64,000 nucleotides of DNA from Candidatus Ruthia endofausta (GTDB lineage: Bacteria; Pseudomonadota; Gammaproteobacteria; PS1; Pseudothioglobaceae): the NCBI RefSeq assembly GCF_013342985.1, contig NZ_CP054490.1, forward strand, positions 1,116,001-1,180,000. The letters run 5' to 3'. The stretch's first letter is position 1. Every line of letters begins with the position of its first letter. The position numbers and the translations under genes are program-made. This document shows positions 7,258-47,587 of this stretch, piece after piece. Under the pieces are notes generated by a model, which was given only the letters and a program-made list of their open reading frames with translations, ran no database searches and was not told where the DNA came from.

Positions 7258-8499
7258 TTGGGTTTTTCTTATCAAAATCACATACTTCATACTGAATCTG
7301 TCAATATTACAGACTTGATAGAGATTTATGGATCGCCACTTTATGTCTATTCTCGCACTGATATTGAGAACAACTGGTATGAATTTGATCAAGCATTTGG
7401 TACACATCCACATTTAGTTTGCTACGCAGTTAAAGCCAACTCTAATTTAGCAGTGCTTAATATTTTATCTAAAATAGGTTCAGGTTTTGATATTGTATCC
7501 ATTGGTGAATTAGAGCGCGTTTTATTTGCTGGAGCAGATGCGTCCCGCTGTGTATTTTCAGGTGTGGCTAAAACAAAGGCTGAAATTAAACGCGCTTTAG
7601 AGGTAGGTATTTTTTGTTTTAATGTTGAATCCATGGCGGAGATGAATCGTATTGAACAAGTGGCAAAAGATATGGATATGCAAGCACCAATTTCGCTACG
7701 CGTTAATCCTAATGTTGATGCAAAAACACACCCGTATATTTCAACAGGACTGAAAGAAAGTAAATTTGGTGTTGATATTGATGATGCTATTCCTATCTAT
7801 CAAATGGCACATAATTCACCTTATTTAACCGTCAAAGGATTGGATTGCCATATTGGCTCACAATTAATAGAGGTGTCCCCTTTTTTAGATGCACTTGATA
7901 AGGTGCTTGAGCTGGTTGCCAAACTTGATAAAATTAGTATTCGTATTACTCATTTGGATTTAGGTGGTGGTGTTGGCATTAAGTATGATAACGAACAAAC
8001 GATTGATATTAATGCTTATATTGTCTCAATTATTAACAAAGTGAGTGATTTAAAAGTTATTTTAGAACCGGGTCGGGCGATTATTGGCAATGCTGGCATA
8101 TTTATTACCAAAGTTGAATTCTTAAAGCAAAATTCATATAAGTCATTTGCAGTTATTGATGGCGCAATGAATGATTTATTGTCCCCTGCCCTTTATCAAA
8201 CTTATCATCAAGTATTGCCTGTTAATGAAAATACTAAAGGCGTTGATGCTAATTGGGATTTGGTGGGGCCAATTTGTGAAACAGGTGATTTTTTAGCTAT
8301 AAATAGAAAACTTCTCTTATCTGAGGGGGACTATTTAGCACTCATGTCTACTGGTGCTTATGGTTTTTCCATGAGCTCAAATTATAACTCTCGTCCTAGA
8401 GTAGCGGAAGTAATGGTATCAGGCAATCAACACACACTAGTGCGAGAACGTGAAACCATTCAAGATTTATTTAACAAAGAGTATATGGTTGATGATTAA
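7258..8499 (+). CDS. lysA: Diaminopimelate decarboxylase
   Basis: Last step of lysine synthesis: PLP-dependent decarboxylation of meso-diaminopimelate. At 413 residues it has the family length. PLP lysine is K59 in CYAVKANSN. HIGSQL, the glycine loop DLGGGVGI, EPGRAI and the dimer-site cysteine loop CETGDFLA are visible. The start is a TTG at 7258, since no ATG or GTG in frame would keep the conserved N terminus. It follows the lptM-like gene by 6 nt, and its last 8 nt overlap yhbY. Confidence 0.96.
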   Translation: MGFSYQNHILHTESVNITDLIEIYGSPLYVYSRTDIENNWYEFDQAFGTHPHLVCYAVKANSNLAVLNILSKIGSGFDIVSIGELERVLFAGADASRCVFSGVAKTKAEIKRALEVGIFCFNVESMAEMNRIEQVAKDMDMQAPISLRVNPNVDAKTHPYISTGLKESKFGVDIDDAIPIYQMAHNSPYLTVKGLDCHIGSQLIEVSPFLDALDKVLELVAKLDKISIRITHLDLGGGVGIKYDNEQTIDINAYIVSIINKVSDLKVILEPGRAIIGNAGIFITKVEFLKQNSYKSFAVIDGAMNDLLSPALYQTYHQVLPVNENTKGVDANWDLVGPICETGDFLAINRKLLLSEGDYLALMSTGAYGFSMSSNYNSRPRVAEVMVSGNQHTLVRERETIQDLFNKEYMVDD

Positions 8500-8794
8500 A
8501 TTAACCAACAATCAAAAAAAAATTCTTAGATCGAAAGGCCATACTCTAAAGCCTGTCATAATAGTAGGACAACACGGATTAAGTGAGTCTGTTTTGGTAG
8601 AGCTTAAGGCAATCATGGAAAAGCATGAATTGCTAAAAATTAAAATACGTATTGACGAGAGAGAGAGAAAGCAAAAAATAATTGATAAAATCATTGACAC
8701 TTCTAATGCTCACTTGGTACAAATAATTGGCAACATTGTGGTGATTTACCGCGGCTTTGATGAAGAACCACAAATTATTCTTCCAAGACAGTAA
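8492..8794 (+). CDS. yhbY: YhbY-type CRM-domain RNA-binding protein
   Basis: A 100-residue single CRM-domain protein associated with pre-50S ribosomal particles. It begins MIKLTNNQKKILRSKGHTLK and carries the GLSESV and ELLKIKI segments and the C-terminal IIGNIVVIYRG of the fold (the GxxG RNA-binding loop is replaced by GQHG). The ATG at 8492 was preferred over the in-frame ATG at 8450 because it matches the family start; it overlaps lysA by 8 nt. lpxB follows after 7 nt. Confidence 0.9.
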   Translation: MIKLTNNQKKILRSKGHTLKPVIIVGQHGLSESVLVELKAIMEKHELLKIKIRIDERERKQKIIDKIIDTSNAHLVQIIGNIVVIYRGFDEEPQIILPRQ

Positions 8795-9887: not shown

Positions 9888-10701
9888 ACACATTCTTAAT
9901 AGTGTGGTGTTGGCGTTAGCTGAGGACTTTGGTACTGGAGATGTTTCTGCTGATTTATTATTAAACAAAATAATCATAGCTGAGATTATATCAAGAGAAC
10001 CCGGCGTTATTTGTGGTATAGAATATGCACAAAATACATTTTTATCACTTGATGATAAAATCAAACTAGATTGGAAAGTTAAAGATGGTGAATGCATTAG
10101 TTCAGGGCAGGTTTTGTGTGTTTTAATAGGCGCTTCTAAGGCCATTATTAGTGCTGAAAGAGTGGCGCTTAACTTTTTACAGATGCTAAGCTCTGTGGCG
10201 ACAAAAACTCACTATTTAGTGAGTAAAATTAATCATACCAATGCACAATTACTAGACACTAGAAAAACCATTCCCGGATTAAAATTGGCGCAAAAATACG
10301 CAGTAAAATGCGGCGGCGGTGTTAACCATCGTATGGGCCTGTATGATTGTATTATGCTGAAAGAAAATCATATTATTGCTTTAGACTCAATCACCTTGGC
10401 AGTTAAATTAGCAATAGAGCAATACCCAAATCTTTCTTTAATTGTTGAAGTGGAAAACTTAATCCAATTACAAGAAGTGCTCACACTTAGTGGTGTAACC
10501 CGAGCATTGTGTGATAATTTTTCCATAAGTGATTTAATACAAGCAGTTGACATGGCTAAAGGTAAATTACCCTTAGAGGCTTCTGGCAATATCAATGAAA
10601 ATACCATTGTGGAAGTGGCTAATACTGGCGTTGATTTTATTTCTACAGGCAGTATCACTAAGAATATTCAGGCAATAGACTTGTCTTTAAGATTTGTTTG
10701 A
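9868..10701 (+). CDS. nadC: Nicotinate-nucleotide pyrophosphorylase (carboxylating)
   Basis: De novo NAD synthesis: quinolinate plus PRPP gives nicotinate mononucleotide. 277 residues from the ATG at 9868 (MNLLTNK), overlapping lpxB. The family signature is present: EDFGTGDVSADLL at the N terminus, AERVALNFLQMLSSVAT, DTRKTIPGLK (substrate-binding Arg/Lys), CGGGVNHRMGLYDCIMLKENH and the C-terminal ISTGSITKN. Its last 15 nt overlap the convergent cysQ end. The PRPP synthase gene prs is also in this window. Confidence 0.96.
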   Translation: MNLLTNKHILNSVVLALAEDFGTGDVSADLLLNKIIIAEIISREPGVICGIEYAQNTFLSLDDKIKLDWKVKDGECISSGQVLCVLIGASKAIISAERVALNFLQMLSSVATKTHYLVSKINHTNAQLLDTRKTIPGLKLAQKYAVKCGGGVNHRMGLYDCIMLKENHIIALDSITLAVKLAIEQYPNLSLIVEVENLIQLQEVLTLSGVTRALCDNFSISDLIQAVDMAKGKLPLEASGNINENTIVEVANTGVDFISTGSITKNIQAIDLSLRFV

Positions 10702-11448
10702 GGCAAAGAAAATTGGGCTGGTTAAATCGTCTTTAGTATTGTAACTTAGAGGCTTTCCATCTTGGCTAACAACACTGCCGCCTGCACCTTGTAAAATACA
10801 TACGCCAGCAGCGGTGTCCCATTCGGAACAAGGACCAAATCTTGGGTAGTAGTCATATCTACCTTCTGCAATAGTGCAAAATTTTAGGGCGCTACCCAAT
10901 TGAGATACTTTATAAGTACCGCATTCTCCTAAATGGTTTTGCAGTTGTTCGTTGTGTGACGAGCAATGGCCAATGACAATTTTTAAAGGGTGATGGTTAG
11001 TGTGTACATTTAATGGTTGGATAACATCTTCTTGTTGTTTGAACGCTTTGTTTACATCTGTTGTATAGTAGTGTGTTTTGCTTAGTGGTGCATAAATCAT
11101 GCCAAATATTGGCCTGTGTTGTTTAATATAGGCAATACAAATACAAAACTCACCTGTCTGCTCAAGAAAGTCACGCGTGCCATCAAGCGGGTCAATTAAC
11201 CAGTATTCATGCCATTTAGAGCGTTCAGAAAATTCAATTATTTCAGATTCTTCTGAAAATATGGGCGTATTTGGTGTGAGTTTTGAAAGTGCTTCAATAA
11301 TCAGTTCATGTGCGTTTTTATCAGCAATGGTCAGTGGCGTTTCATCTAATTTGATTTTAATATCAAGCTCACTTTTATAAAGTGACATAATCATGCTACC
11401 AACTTGAGTGGTTAGCCTAATTAGTGGTGGTATGAGCAAATCAAACAT
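10687..11448 (-). CDS. cysQ: 3'(2'),5'-bisphosphate nucleotidase CysQ
   Basis: Inositol-monophosphatase-fold enzyme that removes 3'-phosphate from PAP/PAPS. Metal-binding motifs are complete: FSEESEI, WLIDPLDGTRDFLEQ and WDTAAGVCILQGAGG. From the ATG at 11448 (MFDLLIPP) it is 253 residues, close to the 246 of E. coli; an ATG at 11469 is possible. Longer starts run into tRNA-Ile and are excluded. It remains intact although cysH, the PAPS/APS reductase gene, is a pseudogene here. Confidence 0.9.
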   Translation of the reverse strand: MFDLLIPPLIRLTTQVGSMIMSLYKSELDIKIKLDETPLTIADKNAHELIIEALSKLTPNTPIFSEESEIIEFSERSKWHEYWLIDPLDGTRDFLEQTGEFCICIAYIKQHRPIFGMIYAPLSKTHYYTTDVNKAFKQQEDVIQPLNVHTNHHPLKIVIGHCSSHNEQLQNHLGECGTYKVSQLGSALKFCTIAEGRYDYYPRFGPCSEWDTAAGVCILQGAGGSVVSQDGKPLSYNTKDDLTSPIFFASNKS

Positions 11449-11501
11449 GGTTATATTATCATACCTCATTGGATATGATAAGTATTGATTTTTGATAAAA
11501 A

Positions 11502-11578
11502 TGGTGGGCCTACTTGGACTTGAACCAAGGACCAATCGATTATGAGTCGATTGCTCTAACCAACTGAGCTATAGGCCC
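11502..11578 (-). tRNA. tRNA-Ile2 (CAU anticodon, lysidine type)
   Basis: A 77-nt cloverleaf with encoded CCA. The anticodon loop is CTCATAA (CAT) and the acceptor GGGCCTA pairs with TAGGCCC. CAT can mean Met or lysidine-modified Ile. The anticodon stem and variable loop (TCGACTCATAATCGATTGG) and TTCAAGTCC match the E. coli ileX type rather than elongator Met, and ileX is also near rpoD in E. coli. tilS, needed to modify it, is intact in this window. Confidence 0.85.
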
Positions 11579-25984: not shown

Positions 25985-27157
25985 TTAAATGCTAGACATT
26001 TTACCAATACGCTCAATAGCACATAATTTATTATCAATGTAATACATTTTTAACTGGCTTCTTTCCCAAGGCGGAATACTGGCCTCTTGTAAGACTTTTT
26101 TTAGTGATTGAGTGTGTGTTTTCCCTAGTAATTTAATGCGCTGGCCTTCTTGTCGATAACGAATTGAAATTTTTTTTAAATCCTTAAACTCTTCATAAAA
26201 TGGACAAGATTCGTTTTTTCTTGGTAGGGCTTTATTGATGAAATATAGTTCATTTTGGTAGCGTCTAATCTCATATTTATCCCAACATACCAAAGGGTTA
26301 GCATCTTCTTTTGTGTGTAGTAGTTCAATAATTTGGTGCATTATTTTATCGCTAGGTGTTAAAAAGTTAAGAAAATTTAAATGATGGAGAAGAACATTTT
26401 TAATTCTGTGAGTTCCAAGTTTGGTAAGTTTGCTTGTATCGATACGATTGGTACTATTGATAATATGATGCATCTTGATATCAATATCAGCCAATTCGCG
26501 TATAAGTTTTAAGGTTTCTGATTGGTGTTTTGCGCTTCTGGCAAGTGTTCTACCTAAATTTTTATACACGTCAGATAATTTAGGTAGAATTTCTAATCGC
26601 AAGAAATTACGCCTAAAATTAGTATTTTTGTTGCTATCGTCTTCTATCCAGCTTAACTTGTTATTTTCAGCATAATCAATAATTTGAGACTTGTTAATTG
26701 TTAAAAAAGGACGATAGTGAATACCTTTGCCTAAAGGTTTTTCTTTAGGCATGGCGGCTAACCCTTTGATACCACCACCACGGAACAGTTGTAGAAGCAG
26801 GGTTTCTGCTTGGTCGTTCTGATGGTGCGCTGTGCAAAGCACCTCATTTTCTTTTAATGAGTTAGATAGCGAATGATAGCGTTTTTTTCGTGCATTTTCT
26901 TCGATATTAGATGTATTATCGAAGGATAAATCAATACTTAAATAGGCGATATTAAGGCTTAAGCATAGTTTTTCACAAAACTTATCCCATTCATTACAAT
27001 ATTGAGACAAATGATGATTGTAATGAATGACGCTTGTTTTATTGGGATAATGCATGTTTAAATAATGCAACAGTACGACAGAATCAATGCCGCCACTAAG
27101 ACTGAGGACAATTTTCTTGCTCTCAAGAAATAAATCTTTAGTCTTTAAATCTTCCAA
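25985..27157 (-). CDS. tilS: tRNA(Ile)-lysidine synthase
   Basis: Modifies C34 of tRNA-Ile2 (CAU) to lysidine, changing its identity from Met to Ile. 390 residues. The PP-loop is [16 protein letters not shown] near 16-32, followed by [29 protein letters not shown] and RPFL. The C-terminal TilS substrate domain is present but short. Its start overlaps the end of accA by 20 nt. Its substrate tRNA gene is at 11502-11578. Confidence 0.95.
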
Positions 27158-42876: not shown

Positions 42877-43668
42877 ATGCAATCTTCTAATACAATGATT
42901 ATGGGTGTGCTTAATATTACACCCGATTCTTTTTCAGATGGCGGTCAGTATCTTATTATTGATAAAGCCATCAATCAGGCTCAACTAATGATTAACCAAG
43001 GCGCTGATATGATTGATATTGGTGGCGAATCAACCAGACCAGATGCGCTACAAGTATCAATTGATAACGAAGCCAGCCGCGTTATTCCCGTTATTAAAGC
43101 GTTATCCAAATTAATCAATGTGCCGATTTCCATTGACACTTCAAAAGCACAAATCATGCAACTTGCCATTGAGGCAGGGGCAAGTATGATTAATGATGTA
43201 CGTGCTTTGCAGGCTAAATCATCCCTTGAAGTGACAGCATCAACTGGTAAGGACGTGTGCCTTATGCATATGCAAAACAACCCTGTTTATACAGATGTCA
43301 TTGATGAAATAAAACATTTTTTTGATCAAAGAATTGAGGCTTGCATTGGTGCTGGTATTAGCCAAAATAAGATTATTCTAGACCCAGGTTTTGGTTTTGG
43401 TAAAACACTCAATCACAACCTTGAAATTTTACGTCGTCTTGACGAATTTAAAAGCTTTGGTTTGAGGATTTTGGTTGGCATGTCACGCAAGTCAATGATT
43501 GGTAGTATGCTTAATAATAGAAATACGGATGGAAGAATGATTGGTAGCGTAACAACCGCTATAATAGCATCTCAAAACGGTGCAAATATTGTGCGTGTAC
43601 ACGACGTTTTAGAAACTAAAGATGCGTTTAAGGTTTTAAAAAGCGTAGCAGGAAAACAAGTTGGGTAA
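42877..43668 (+). CDS. folP: Dihydropteroate synthase
   Basis: 263 residues, TIM barrel, joins pABA to dihydropterin pyrophosphate. [50 protein letters not shown], the [18 protein letters not shown] loop and [10 protein letters not shown] are all present. It follows ftsH by 40 nt and overlaps glmM by 8 nt, the ftsH-folP-glmM order of E. coli. Confidence 0.97.
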
Positions 43669-44986
43669 TTATTTTGGTACTGATGGCATACGTGGTAAGG
43701 TAGGTGTTGAGCCTATTACCGCTGATTTTTTCTTAAAATTAGGCTGGTCAGTTGGCTCAGTATTAGCTAAGCAAGGCAAAGCCAGTGTTATTATTGGCAA
43801 AGATACTCGTGTATCTGGCTATTTATTCGAATCTGCACTTGAGGCGGGTTTTTTATCTGCTGGTGTTGATGTTGGTTTGCTAGGCCCGATGCCAACGCCT
43901 GCAGTTGCTTATTTAACACAAACTTATAATGTTAGTGCTGGCGTGGTCATTAGTGCTTCACATAATCATTTTCAAGATAATGGTGTTAAGTTTTTTTCTG
44001 CCAAAGGTCTTAAATTAAACAGCCAAGACCAAAGCGAAATTGAGAAAAAATTAGCCGAGCCTATGGTCAGTGTGGGCGCTGATAAGATTGGCAAAGCCCA
44101 TAGACACGAACAACCACTTGGGCGTTATATCGAATTTTGCAAATCAACGTTTGATCGAACGCAAAGTCTTTTAGGGCTTAATATTGTCATTGATTGTGCA
44201 AATGGCGCCACTTATCACATTGCCCAAAGCGTGTTCTCAGAACTGGGTGCAAACATTAATATCATCAACAACACACCAGATGGCTTTAATATTAATGAGC
44301 ATTGTGGTGCAACCGACACCAAACACCTGCAACAAGTTGTATTAGAGTCAAAAGCAGATTTGGGCATTGCCTTTGATGGCGATGGCGATCGCTTAATGAT
44401 GGTGGATGAAAATGGCGAGTTGGTTGATGGTGACGAGCTGGTATTTATTATCGCCAAAGTTTGGCAATCTCAAGGTAGGCTAGTTAATAAGACAGTGGTC
44501 GGCACAAAAATGAGCAACTTAGGTATGCGTCATGCACTAAAAGATTTAGATATTAAATTTATCGAAGCTGACGTGGGAGATCGCTTTGTGATGGAACAAA
44601 TGCAAAAAAGCGGCTCAATACTAGGTGGCGAGAGCTCAGGGCATATCATATGCCTGAATAAAACCACTTCTGGCGATGGCATTATTTCTGCCTTACAAGT
44701 ATTAGAAGTACTGGTAAAAAGCCAATCCAGCCTTGCTAAATTAAAGCAATCAATGAGAAAATATCCACAAGTTTTAATTAATGTTAAAATCCAAACAAAA
44801 ATTAACCTTGAAAACCACATCAAACTACAACAAACTCAGCTTGAGGTTGAGAAAACGCTTGGTCGTGAGGGTCGAGTATTAATCCGCGTTTCAGGCACAG
44901 AGCTACTTATCAGAGTGATGGTTGAAGCCAAAGATAAAATGATTGCTCAGCAAGGCGCTGAAAGACTATCAAACATTTTTAAATAG
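43661..44986 (+). CDS. glmM: Phosphoglucosamine mutase
   Basis: 441 residues; converts glucosamine-6-phosphate to the 1-phosphate for UDP-GlcNAc. N-terminal [12 protein letters not shown], active-site phosphoserine loop [15 protein letters not shown] (Ser near 101), metal loop [23 protein letters not shown] and C-terminal [14 protein letters not shown]. The start is a TTG at 43661 that overlaps folP; no other start retains YFGTDGIRG. Confidence 0.96.
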
Positions 44987-45012
44987 AGTAAAAGATACAA
45001 TCTATTTGCATA

Positions 45013-45390
45013 TCATTTGGGAATAATCTGTCTTGAATTGTTATTGTGCTCTAAATTTAGCAAGCGTTTTTTAATTGGTAACCCACCGTCATAATCAGCC
45101 AGTTCTCCATTACTGCTAAACGATGACAAGGAATGATAATACTAATAGAGCTTGCCCCGTTTGCACTAGCCACTGCTTGAACTGCTTTTTCAAGATAACT
45201 GTTAAATTGTTTTTTTAGTTTTTGTCATTTTGTTCATTTTGTTCTATAAATTCAGCCTTTATTTAATTAATCCATTTTTAATTCTATTATCAACATCTGT
45301 TCTCATTCTTCGATATCTAAAATCAAGAATACAAAGTTTGTCATCATAAGAACCAATGATTAGTTCGCCAATTTAATATTGAATGTTGAT
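45013..45390 (-). pseudogene. ogt: Methylated-DNA--protein-cysteine methyltransferase pseudogene
   Basis: N-terminal part GELIIGSYDDKLCILDFRYR and RMRTDVDNRIKNGLIK, then stop/shift, QFNSYLEKAVQAVASANGAS, IIIPCHR (the acceptor Cys motif), a frameshift, FSSNGELADYDGGLPIKK and RLLNLEHNNN. Between the two halves about 40 residues are deleted (the stretch before KAV, including the helix-turn-helix). Repair of O6-methylguanine would be lost unless another gene exists. Confidence 0.85.
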
Positions 45391-45393
45391 TTG

Positions 45394-45806
45394 TTAGAAA
45401 AAATTACCGCTCAACAAGGATTGATCTGGGAGCCTTATAACAAGCTCCATCTCAACTTGAAAATCAGGTGTTGCAGCAAGGGGTCTCTCTACACCAACAC
45501 CCAGTTACACAGGGGGCTGCCACCTTCAAAAGTGCCTAAAAACAGAGGTATAACTTCTTCTAATCTTTTAGGTGTGAGGCTAATCATGTAGATACGCGCA
45601 ATGACGACATCATCTGGTTTGGTTCCAACAGCATCTAGCGTAGATTTTGTATTTAACGAAACAATATTTATTTGCTTTACTAAATTTTCAGGGCACTGGC
45701 TCACCGTTTTGTTGCTACGCAACTTGACCAAAGATATAAGCCATACGGGACCTGGCTCAACTATTGATATCTACGAATACCCTATTTTTCCAGTTGATTT
45801 TATCAT
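45394..45806 (-). pseudogene. RidA-family (YjgF-like) protein pseudogene
   Basis: From ATG 45806: IKSTGKIGYS, stop, SIVEPGPVWLI, frame change around GQVA, then PENLVKQINIVSLNTKSTLD and AVGTKPDDVVIARIYMISLT, EVIPLFLGTFEGGSPL, frame change, LGVGVERPLAATPDFQVEM. The NIKSTL..VG...DDVV and F..TFEG.SP..T..GV..LA patterns are RidA-family. At least three lesions. It ends where ogt once started. Confidence 0.8.
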
Positions 45807-46010
45807 GCTTTCTCCTAAATATAGTATCTTTTAATTTAGTATTGACTAACTCTCTGACATCTAATTTTACCTGATAACTTAGAACGGAGGGTACAAAAGC
45901 CAATGGAAGGACAGTTAGATAAGGTATTTTGTTGGCTATGATTTAGCCATTTTAGTGGAATTAAATTACATTTTTATCCTGATCTCGAATAAAAAACATT
46001 ATTCCTCCAT

Positions 46011-46217
46011 TTGGTAACGATGATACTAAATCAAGCACCATTAATAGCTGTTGATTTTAGTAATTTTAACAATGGAAGGAGTTATTCCCAAGTGAAATTA
46101 TTAAAAAAAGTAGTGGGTTATGTTGGTGAAATTAAAGCACTTAATGTGCATATTGATCACTTTGCTATCAAGCAGCTGAGAACAATACAGGGTTGGTTGA
46201 ACAATATAAATCATTAA
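46011..46217 (+). pseudogene. DUF934 (sulfate-assimilation associated) pseudogene
   Basis: The open frame gives NQAPLIAVDFSNFNNGRSYS then QVKLLKKVVGYVGEIKALN, matching the APLIALDFP.F.DGRGYS..RLLR...GY.GELRA core of DUF934 proteins, then jumps to HIDHFAIKQLRTI, omitting the GDVL.DQL.YM..CGFD part. The N-terminal half is missing. DUF934 genes usually lie in cysH/cysI operons. Confidence 0.75.
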
Positions 46218-46227
46218 GGAGGTACTA

Positions 46228-46425
46228 ATGAATGAAAAAGTTCATCGGTCATTGATAAAAACATATTCATGGTAGTTTTTTGCAATCATAGATACAGTTG
46301 TTATTGCTTATCTTGTGACGGGTAGTTTATCAGTTGTCTCTTCTATTGGCGTCTGAGGTATTTAAAAAACTTTTCTGTATTACTTTGTTTGGTATTTGGC
46401 CAAGCAAGTATTACCAAAAATAAAG
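46228..46425 (+). pseudogene. DUF2061 membrane protein pseudogene
   Basis: AAGGAGGT precedes ATG 46228. NEKVHRSLIKTYSW, TAG, FFAIIDTVVIAYLVTGSLSV, VSSIGV, TGA, then FLYYFVWYLAKQ in another frame. Intact DUF2061 proteins read HRSLLKA.SWR..G..DT..IAYL.TG......SIG..EV..K..LYY.HER.W. Two stops and a frame change. Confidence 0.8.
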
Positions 46426-46455
46426 GATTTTATTGTAACAACACCTTATAAACCA

Positions 46456-46894
46456 CTTGAAACAAAAGCGTATATGAGAGATTTTGTTAAGGGCTACCCT
46501 GAAACTGAAATATTTGAGAGCGACAGCACTGTTGACAAGCTGTACGCAACAGACTCAGATAAATGTTGTGAAATATATAAGGTAGAGCCGACAAGAGTGG
46601 TATTATAAAAACTTCAGATTAAGTACTGGGTTATGGGGTTACGTTGTACGGAAGGCAGAACTCAAACAAACTATCGGAAGCTTGAATATCGAGATAAGGA
46701 CTTGGCTAAACTTAACCCTATTTTAATTTGGGAAGAAAGAGAGATTTGGCAATATTTAGCGATGAATGCAATCAAAGTCAATATGTTATATCAAGAAAGT
46801 TACAGATCCTTAGGGTATTGCAACTGGTGATGAAAGAAATGGTAGATGAGTTGGATTAAGTGAGTGTGACGGTGAATGTGGCATTCATACGTAA
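46456..46894 (+). pseudogene. cysH: Phosphoadenylyl/adenylyl-sulfate reductase (CysH) pseudogene
   Basis: RDFVKGYPETEIFESDSTVD then KLYATDSDKCCEIYKVEPTR, stop, YWVMGLRCTEGRTQTNYRKL, LNPILIWEEREIWQYL, YRSLG, frame change, GDERNGR, TGA in place of Trp, VGLSE, and ECGIHT before the final stop. The C-terminal ECGLH-type motif holds the catalytic Cys of APS/PAPS reductases and is still readable. The N-terminal PP-loop part is gone. It reduced activated sulfate to sulfite for cysteine synthesis. Confidence 0.88.
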
Positions 46895-47011
46895 CCATTA
46901 AAACGTCTTTAAATGCGATTTTACAGATTGTTAACTTGGCAGATAAATAGGCTAATGTCAGGGGATTGCTGTGTGTTAAACGCCAATTAAAATTAGGTTA
47001 AAATCATCGCT

Positions 47012-47587
47012 ATGAATGAATACGTCTTAATATTGGTTAGTACGATTTTGGTCAATAACTTTGTACTGGTTAAGTTCTTAGGATTATGCCCGTTTATGGG
47101 AGTGTCAAAAAAAATTGATACTGCGATTGGTATGGGCTTTGCCACGACTTTTGTACTAACTTTGGCGAGTATTTCTAGTTATTTAATTAACACCTATATT
47201 TTGGTTCCATTTGAAATGGAATATCTAAGAACCATTGCTTTTATCGTGACCATTGCAAGTGTGGTTAGCTTTACGGAATTGGTGGTTAATAAAACCTCAC
47301 CTGTTTTGCACCAATCTCTAGGTGTATTTTTACCACTTATTACCACTAACTGCGCCATGTTAGGTGTGGCATTGTTAAATGTTAATCAAGACCATGGATT
47401 TTTAGCATCGGGCGTTTATGGTTTTGGTGCTGCCATTGGATTTTCATTTGTGTTGGTGTTGTTTTCAGCCATGCGTGAACGCATTGACACAGCCGATGTA
47501 CCAATTGCATTTAAAGGCGCACCTGTTGCTTTGATTACTGCTGGACTGATGTCAATGGCGTTTATGGGCTTTACTGGACTTGCTTGA
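47012..47587 (+). CDS. rnfA: Ion-translocating oxidoreductase subunit RnfA
   Basis: 191 residues, six membrane helices. Begins [20 protein letters not shown] and has [33 protein letters not shown] and [10 protein letters not shown], the RnfA/NqrE signature with its conserved cysteines. The Rnf complex couples ferredoxin and NAD redox exchange to ion movement across the inner membrane. It overlaps rnfB by 8 nt. Confidence 0.97.

Follow-up and report, generated by a model that had tools for sequence, protein, structure and literature searches.

In Proteobacteria, genes for assimilatory sulfate reduction are found in a cysI-DUF934-DUF2061-cysH cluster, which in the family studied here is intact in the loci L042, L057/L160, L158 and L159, with the same genes, order and strand as at the locus described below; the flanks, rsxA on one side and glmM/tauE on the other, are also the same wherever the contig reaches them. 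Gene decay is known from the vesicomyid clam symbionts, where recA and mutY have degenerated stepwise, through substitutions and small indels and later through larger deletions (PMC3202245). Passages in papers on vesicomyid sulfur metabolism describe sulfur oxidation by Dsr, Apr and Sat, as found here, and contain no mention of cysH, cysI or their pseudogenes (PMC2642828, PMC3035367, PMC7826175); nor was any mention of a cysH or cysI pseudogene in these symbionts found in the open-licence literature.

The window, i.e. the whole stretch of 64,000 nucleotides that was analysed, belongs to a genome consisting of a single contig of 1,188,809 bases (1.19 Mb). The named organisms closest to it are vesicomyid clam symbionts, Ca. 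Ruthia sp. Cpac_8_S14 and Plio_17_S18 (Cpac and Plio in the following) and Ca. Vesicomyosocius, together with Ca. Ruthturnera MAGs. In relatives, the site between glmM and rsxA holds, in this order, tauE, lrp (on the minus strand), cysI, DUF934, DUF2061 and cysH; tauE encodes a protein of the sulfite exporter family (TauE/SafE-type). The full cluster, with the same flanks and order, is present in L042, L057 and L160, the last being a twin of L057, and L158 and L159 show the same core order as far as their contigs extend. At the window site, pseudogenes of DUF934, DUF2061 and cysH lie on the plus strand at 46014-46906, flanked by intact glmM and rsxA (Table 1). An earlier note, made from the letters of the window, had recognized here three plus-strand genes of sulfate assimilation, all broken, and Pfam searches and tblastn against the L042 proteins confirm it; the present analysis sets the remnants at the limits just given and adds the loss of cysI, lrp and tauE at this site, where tblastn with the L042 proteins finds no trace of them.

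Table 1. Position of the cluster remnants, of the sequences around them and of cysQ in the window
Feature	Position	Strand	Evidence and remarks
cysQ, 3'(2'),5'-bisphosphate nucleotidase	10690..11535	-	Intact; TIGR01331 251.8 bits, cut-off 228.8; outside the cluster
glmM	43661..44986	+	ORF; intact left anchor; also to the left of the cluster in relatives
Gene debris downstream of glmM	44987..45793	-	Includes the Ogt fragment and the weak RidA-like fragment
Ogt (6-O-methylguanine-DNA methyltransferase) fragment	about 45060-45194	-	PF01035 27.5 bits, cut-off 27
Weak RidA-like fragment	about 45489-45731	-	PF01042 15.6 bits, below cut-off
Non-coding stretch in the place of cysI, abutting the DUF934 remnant	45794..46013	.	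blastn
DUF934 remnant	46014..46210	+	PF06073 41.2 bits, E 1.6e-10; tblastn against the L042 protein; junctions
DUF2061 remnant	46228..46383	+	PF09834 36.5 bits, E 6.9e-9; tblastn against L042
cysH (APS/PAPS reductase) remnant	46387..46906	+	Whole stretch, PF01507 82.2 bits, E 3.1e-23, cut-off 22.5, one internal stop; tblastn; alignment with L032, L033 and L042
rsxA	47012..47587	+	ORF; intact right anchor; same right neighbour in relatives

The lesions found across the three remnants are deletions, frameshifts and stops. In cysH, codons 1-55 are deleted, and the nucleotide-binding loop (SLGKDS in an intact relative) is gone with them; tblastn against L042 matches codons 56-198 with 77% identity, interrupted by a TAA at 46606-46608, and codons 205-234 continue in another frame. 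Alignment with the corresponding loci of Plio (L032) and Cpac (L033) and with L042 places a 17-bp deletion near 46816, which shifts the frame and removes the CxxC segment. The ECGIH catalytic motif is still readable, as the earlier note had observed, but it is parted from the rest of the gene by the frameshift; the C-terminal piece alone reaches 49.5 bits (E 6.3e-13) in the Pfam search. The remnant is 71-78% identical to the intact proteins of relatives. Cysteines in CC and CxxC arrangement are associated with APS reductases. The intact L042 protein contains both GCCEIY and CTPC, the window remnant retains the CC and has the CxxC segment deleted, and CysH of this type looks like an APS reductase; the NCBIfam cut-off for the APS-reductase subfamily is not reached by the L042 protein.

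The DUF934 remnant matches only codons 49-97 and 127-144 of the L042 gene, in two frames (tblastn), the N-terminal codons 1-48 and codons 98-126 being missing; relative to Plio, it carries a 91-bp internal deletion plus a frameshift. For DUF2061, L042 codons 1-53 are matched by tblastn, with several internal stops and an indel, and the C-terminal part is lost. Every remnant piece exceeds the curated Pfam cut-off, except the middle cysH piece taken alone, and with such profile scores chance matches are out of the question as their source. The non-coding stretch that occupies the place of cysI is 84% identical to positions 8336-8551 of the Cpac locus, with no match in the Plio locus (blastn). 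Junction comparison and alignment mapped deletions of about 91, 234 and 17 bp in the region, and matching bases at the junctions are short or absent; for this reason repeat-mediated deletion was dropped, and nothing beyond illegitimate recombination is claimed. The Ogt fragment that adjoins the dead cluster represents one more repair gene lost.

Assimilatory sulfate reduction requires intact cysH and cysI, and this genome has neither. No second cysH and no cysD are present in it, the only other PAPS_reduct match being TilS (25988-27157, minus strand), which was rejected as CysD. cysI is also absent from the whole genome, where the three NIR_SIR matches correspond to dsrA, dsrB and an 800-aa nirB-like frame; this same frame gives the weak match obtained with the CysI query, which was not accepted as cysI. 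An APS-kinase profile matches 48 of its 152 positions in a 320-aa frame with 21.9 bits, just over the cut-off, and was taken as a generic P-loop match, not as a convincing APS kinase. Judging from gene content, there is no known route for assimilatory sulfate reduction in this organism. The genes for sulfur oxidation sat, aprB, aprA, dsrA and dsrB are intact, all above cut-off (TIGR02064, TIGR02066, TIGR02060, TIGR02061, NF003166), and so are cysE (245.8 bits) and cysM (512.2 bits). The fourth and fifth PALP matches were rejected as cysK; they belong, judged by sequence, to an ilvA-like pseudogene (threonine ammonia-lyase) that several stops interrupt, located at L146:900-1560 (G000:C1:307400-308060).

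Intact sulfur oxidation genes, the absence of cysH, cysD and cysI, and the retention of cysE and cysM together point to a thiotroph in which the sulfur of cysteine is probably drawn from sulfide, or from thiosulfate via CysM; the E. coli CysM is known to use thiosulfate (PMC3528435). The earlier note had also remarked that cysQ is still intact, which is correct and has no bearing on the pathway, because CysH appears to be of the APS-reducing kind and CysQ also clears PAP derived from coenzyme A. Coenzyme A metabolism also yields PAP as a by-product (PMC8268124), so CysQ would have work even without sulfate assimilation.

Comparison with Cpac separates cysH from its neighbours: the differences at codon positions 1, 2 and 3 are 12.1, 12.2 and 8.7% in cysH, against 0.5, 1.1 and 5.9% in glmM, 2.6, 0.5 and 5.8% in rsxA, 5.5, 2.2 and 11.5% in rsxB, and 3.0, 2.2 and 6.2% in rsxC (Fisher's exact test on counts, cysH versus the four intact genes, p = 4e-6). 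The neighbouring genes are under strong purifying selection, and at the protein level CysH of the window is 78% identical to that of Cpac, compared with 93-98% for the flanking genes. With the more distant Plio the values for cysH are 12.3, 10.0 and 22.5%, and this excess at position 3 is expected if cysH was under selection until fairly recently. Drift of cysH without codon-position bias, beside constrained neighbours, therefore shows that it is a genuine pseudogene, its breaks not being products of sequencing error. This AT-rich region contains many runs of A and T, and frameshifts in such runs are a known type of error; however, it is exceedingly improbable that intact genes only appear broken through faults of assembly or base calling, since wrong base calls do not explain the three deletions (about 91, 234 and 17 bp) or the absence of cysI, separately assembled relatives carry different breaks in the same genes, and codon-position bias is lost in cysH with the adjacent genes intact. 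Similarly, the cysH piece still contains two open stretches, 70 and 65 codons long, which might suggest that the remnants keep a role as a short peptide or RNA, but this is scarcely credible for a sequence that shows no codon-position bias against Cpac, in a region where the cuts vary from relative to relative and which several relatives do not have.

Sister genomes show other states of the same decay. In Plio (G010), the DUF934 and DUF2061 frames are open beside broken cysI and cysH; Cpac (G002) has cysH pieces only, and CSMAG_640 (L078), matched by L162 of G008, has only a cysH fragment. In G007, tauE is intact, lrp is broken and cysI is truncated and followed by a transposase-like frame; these genes are not beside rsxA, and the cluster was therefore moved or split by rearrangement. 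In G007, tauE, lrp and cysI (L161:6130-9256) have a truncated dxr-like frame on their upstream side and an IS3-type transposase frame on their downstream side. The lesions of cysH differ as well, with the TAA and the 17-bp deletion in the window, another stop and small indels in Cpac, and other frameshifts in Plio; these differences and the flat codon-position pattern suggest a loss of cysH function before the window and Cpac lineages split, the gene being damaged independently afterwards. The loss of tauE, lrp and cysI from the site is instead common to the window and Cpac, its nearest relative. No tauE is found anywhere in the window genome with a query that recovers the intact gene from 9 of 12 members of the genus; it is also absent in Cpac, and scraps only are left in G003. 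Since the sequence found in the place of cysI is shared by the window and Cpac, both lacking tauE, cysI and tauE had most likely gone already in their common ancestor. Nearly all relatives keep tauE between glmM and rsxA, yet it is missing in these two genomes.

At the family level, intact cysH of this type is found in 4 of the 83 genomes, distributed in three genera, so the locus is not generally kept in the free-living relatives either; cysH remnants alone occur in 4 of the 83, all in the genus of the window, one further weak match is a distant reductase, and nearly all other genomes have none. The same four genomes have an intact cysI, as do most members of one other genus, which has no cysH of this type; several loci there have lrp, cysI and DUF934, in many cases with DUF2061, next to rsxA. 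This pattern suggests that in that genus sulfite is assimilated and APS is not reduced. Loci of this kind include L041, L050, L051, L060, L061 and L065, and in L060 a ferredoxin-NADP reductase-like frame occupies the cysH position. Most SUP05-type loci, including free-living ones, have tauE alone between glmM and rsxA, and free-living SUP05/Thioglobus-type loci without the cluster include L049, L052 and L058. In a tree of four core proteins, the genus of the window is nested within lineages that do not have the cluster; one locus, L047, belongs to a lineage otherwise devoid of it and retains lrp at this site, together with a DUF934-like frame. The loss is widespread in sulfur oxidisers of the family, free-living ones included, and is therefore no sign of symbiosis: it is recurrent in the family, and not a mark of this symbiosis. 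Thus, of the earlier proposal that a supply of reduced sulfur made the pathway unneeded, in line with a thiotroph, the dead pathway, the thiotrophic gene content and the presence of cysE and cysM uphold the core, but the loss is not specific to this symbiont.

Taken together, the locus is very probably a decayed, vertically inherited cluster for assimilatory sulfate/sulfite reduction in a vesicomyid-type thiotrophic symbiont, a product of ordinary reductive evolution. The cluster tauE-lrp(-)-cysI-DUF934-DUF2061-cysH would have been inherited vertically, and the use of sulfide (or thiosulfate through CysM) as source of cysteine sulfur would have removed selection on the pathway; the loss of tauE, lrp and cysI is shared with Cpac, and cysH then drifted neutrally and gathered lineage-specific lesions, decay proceeding by point mutation and deletion in a shrinking genome. 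Given that the genus is nested among cluster-less lineages, vertical inheritance needs several independent losses; a single regain followed by loss is less probable, the shared site and the relics in L047 favouring repeated loss. That the ancestor of the genus acquired the cluster late by horizontal transfer, with a lineage like that of L042 or L158 as donor, and soon lost it again, would agree with the position in the core-gene tree and with the identity of the window CysH to L158 (78%) and L042 (76%), rsxA and rsxB being closer to L042; this is unlikely, however, as the site and the gene order between glmM/tauE and rsxA are those of the outgroup genera, the L047 relics lie at the same site, and CysH and CysI are about as similar to the candidate donors as the flanking genes would lead one to expect.

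Another way to account for the loss is that it was driven by symbiosis, with cysteine or reduced sulfur supplied by the host. The small genome, the clam-symbiont genus and the relaxed selection evident from the codon-position data are in accord with it, but we hold it to be improbable, because the cluster is lost also in free-living SUP05/Thioglobus-type loci and because intact cysE and cysM mean that the bacterium still makes cysteine; the family-wide distribution has weakened it. Within the reading of ordinary reductive evolution, selection may also have taken part in the loss of cysH. APS and sulfite would be intermediates of sulfur oxidation, proceeding by rDsr-AprBA-Sat towards sulfate, so that an APS-reducing CysH would short-circuit the pathway, and this may have favoured loss of the gene. 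That cysH was selected against as part of a futile APS cycle, being lost even where cysI is useful, and cysI too where sulfide is constant, is conceivable but rather doubtful; the genus that has cysI, DUF934 and often DUF2061, with no cysH, bears on this point.

According to gene content, sulfate cannot be the source of cysteine for the symbiont, and the holobiont would need reduced sulfur both for energy and for biosynthesis. With respect to the intact cluster of its family, the window lacks cysI, lrp and tauE, and its DUF934, DUF2061 and cysH are pseudogenes; unlike most of the genus, the window and Cpac genomes have no TauE-type exporter. The family provides a series of intermediates for the loss of a whole pathway, from intact to partly broken, to one fragment, to nothing, and the tie of this loss to sulfur-oxidising life is no weaker than its tie to symbiosis. 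As in the decay of recA and mutY in vesicomyid symbionts (PMC3202245), genes were lost one by one and independently in sister lineages; in contrast to that case, a whole biosynthetic pathway has been lost here, and the loss includes free-living relatives.
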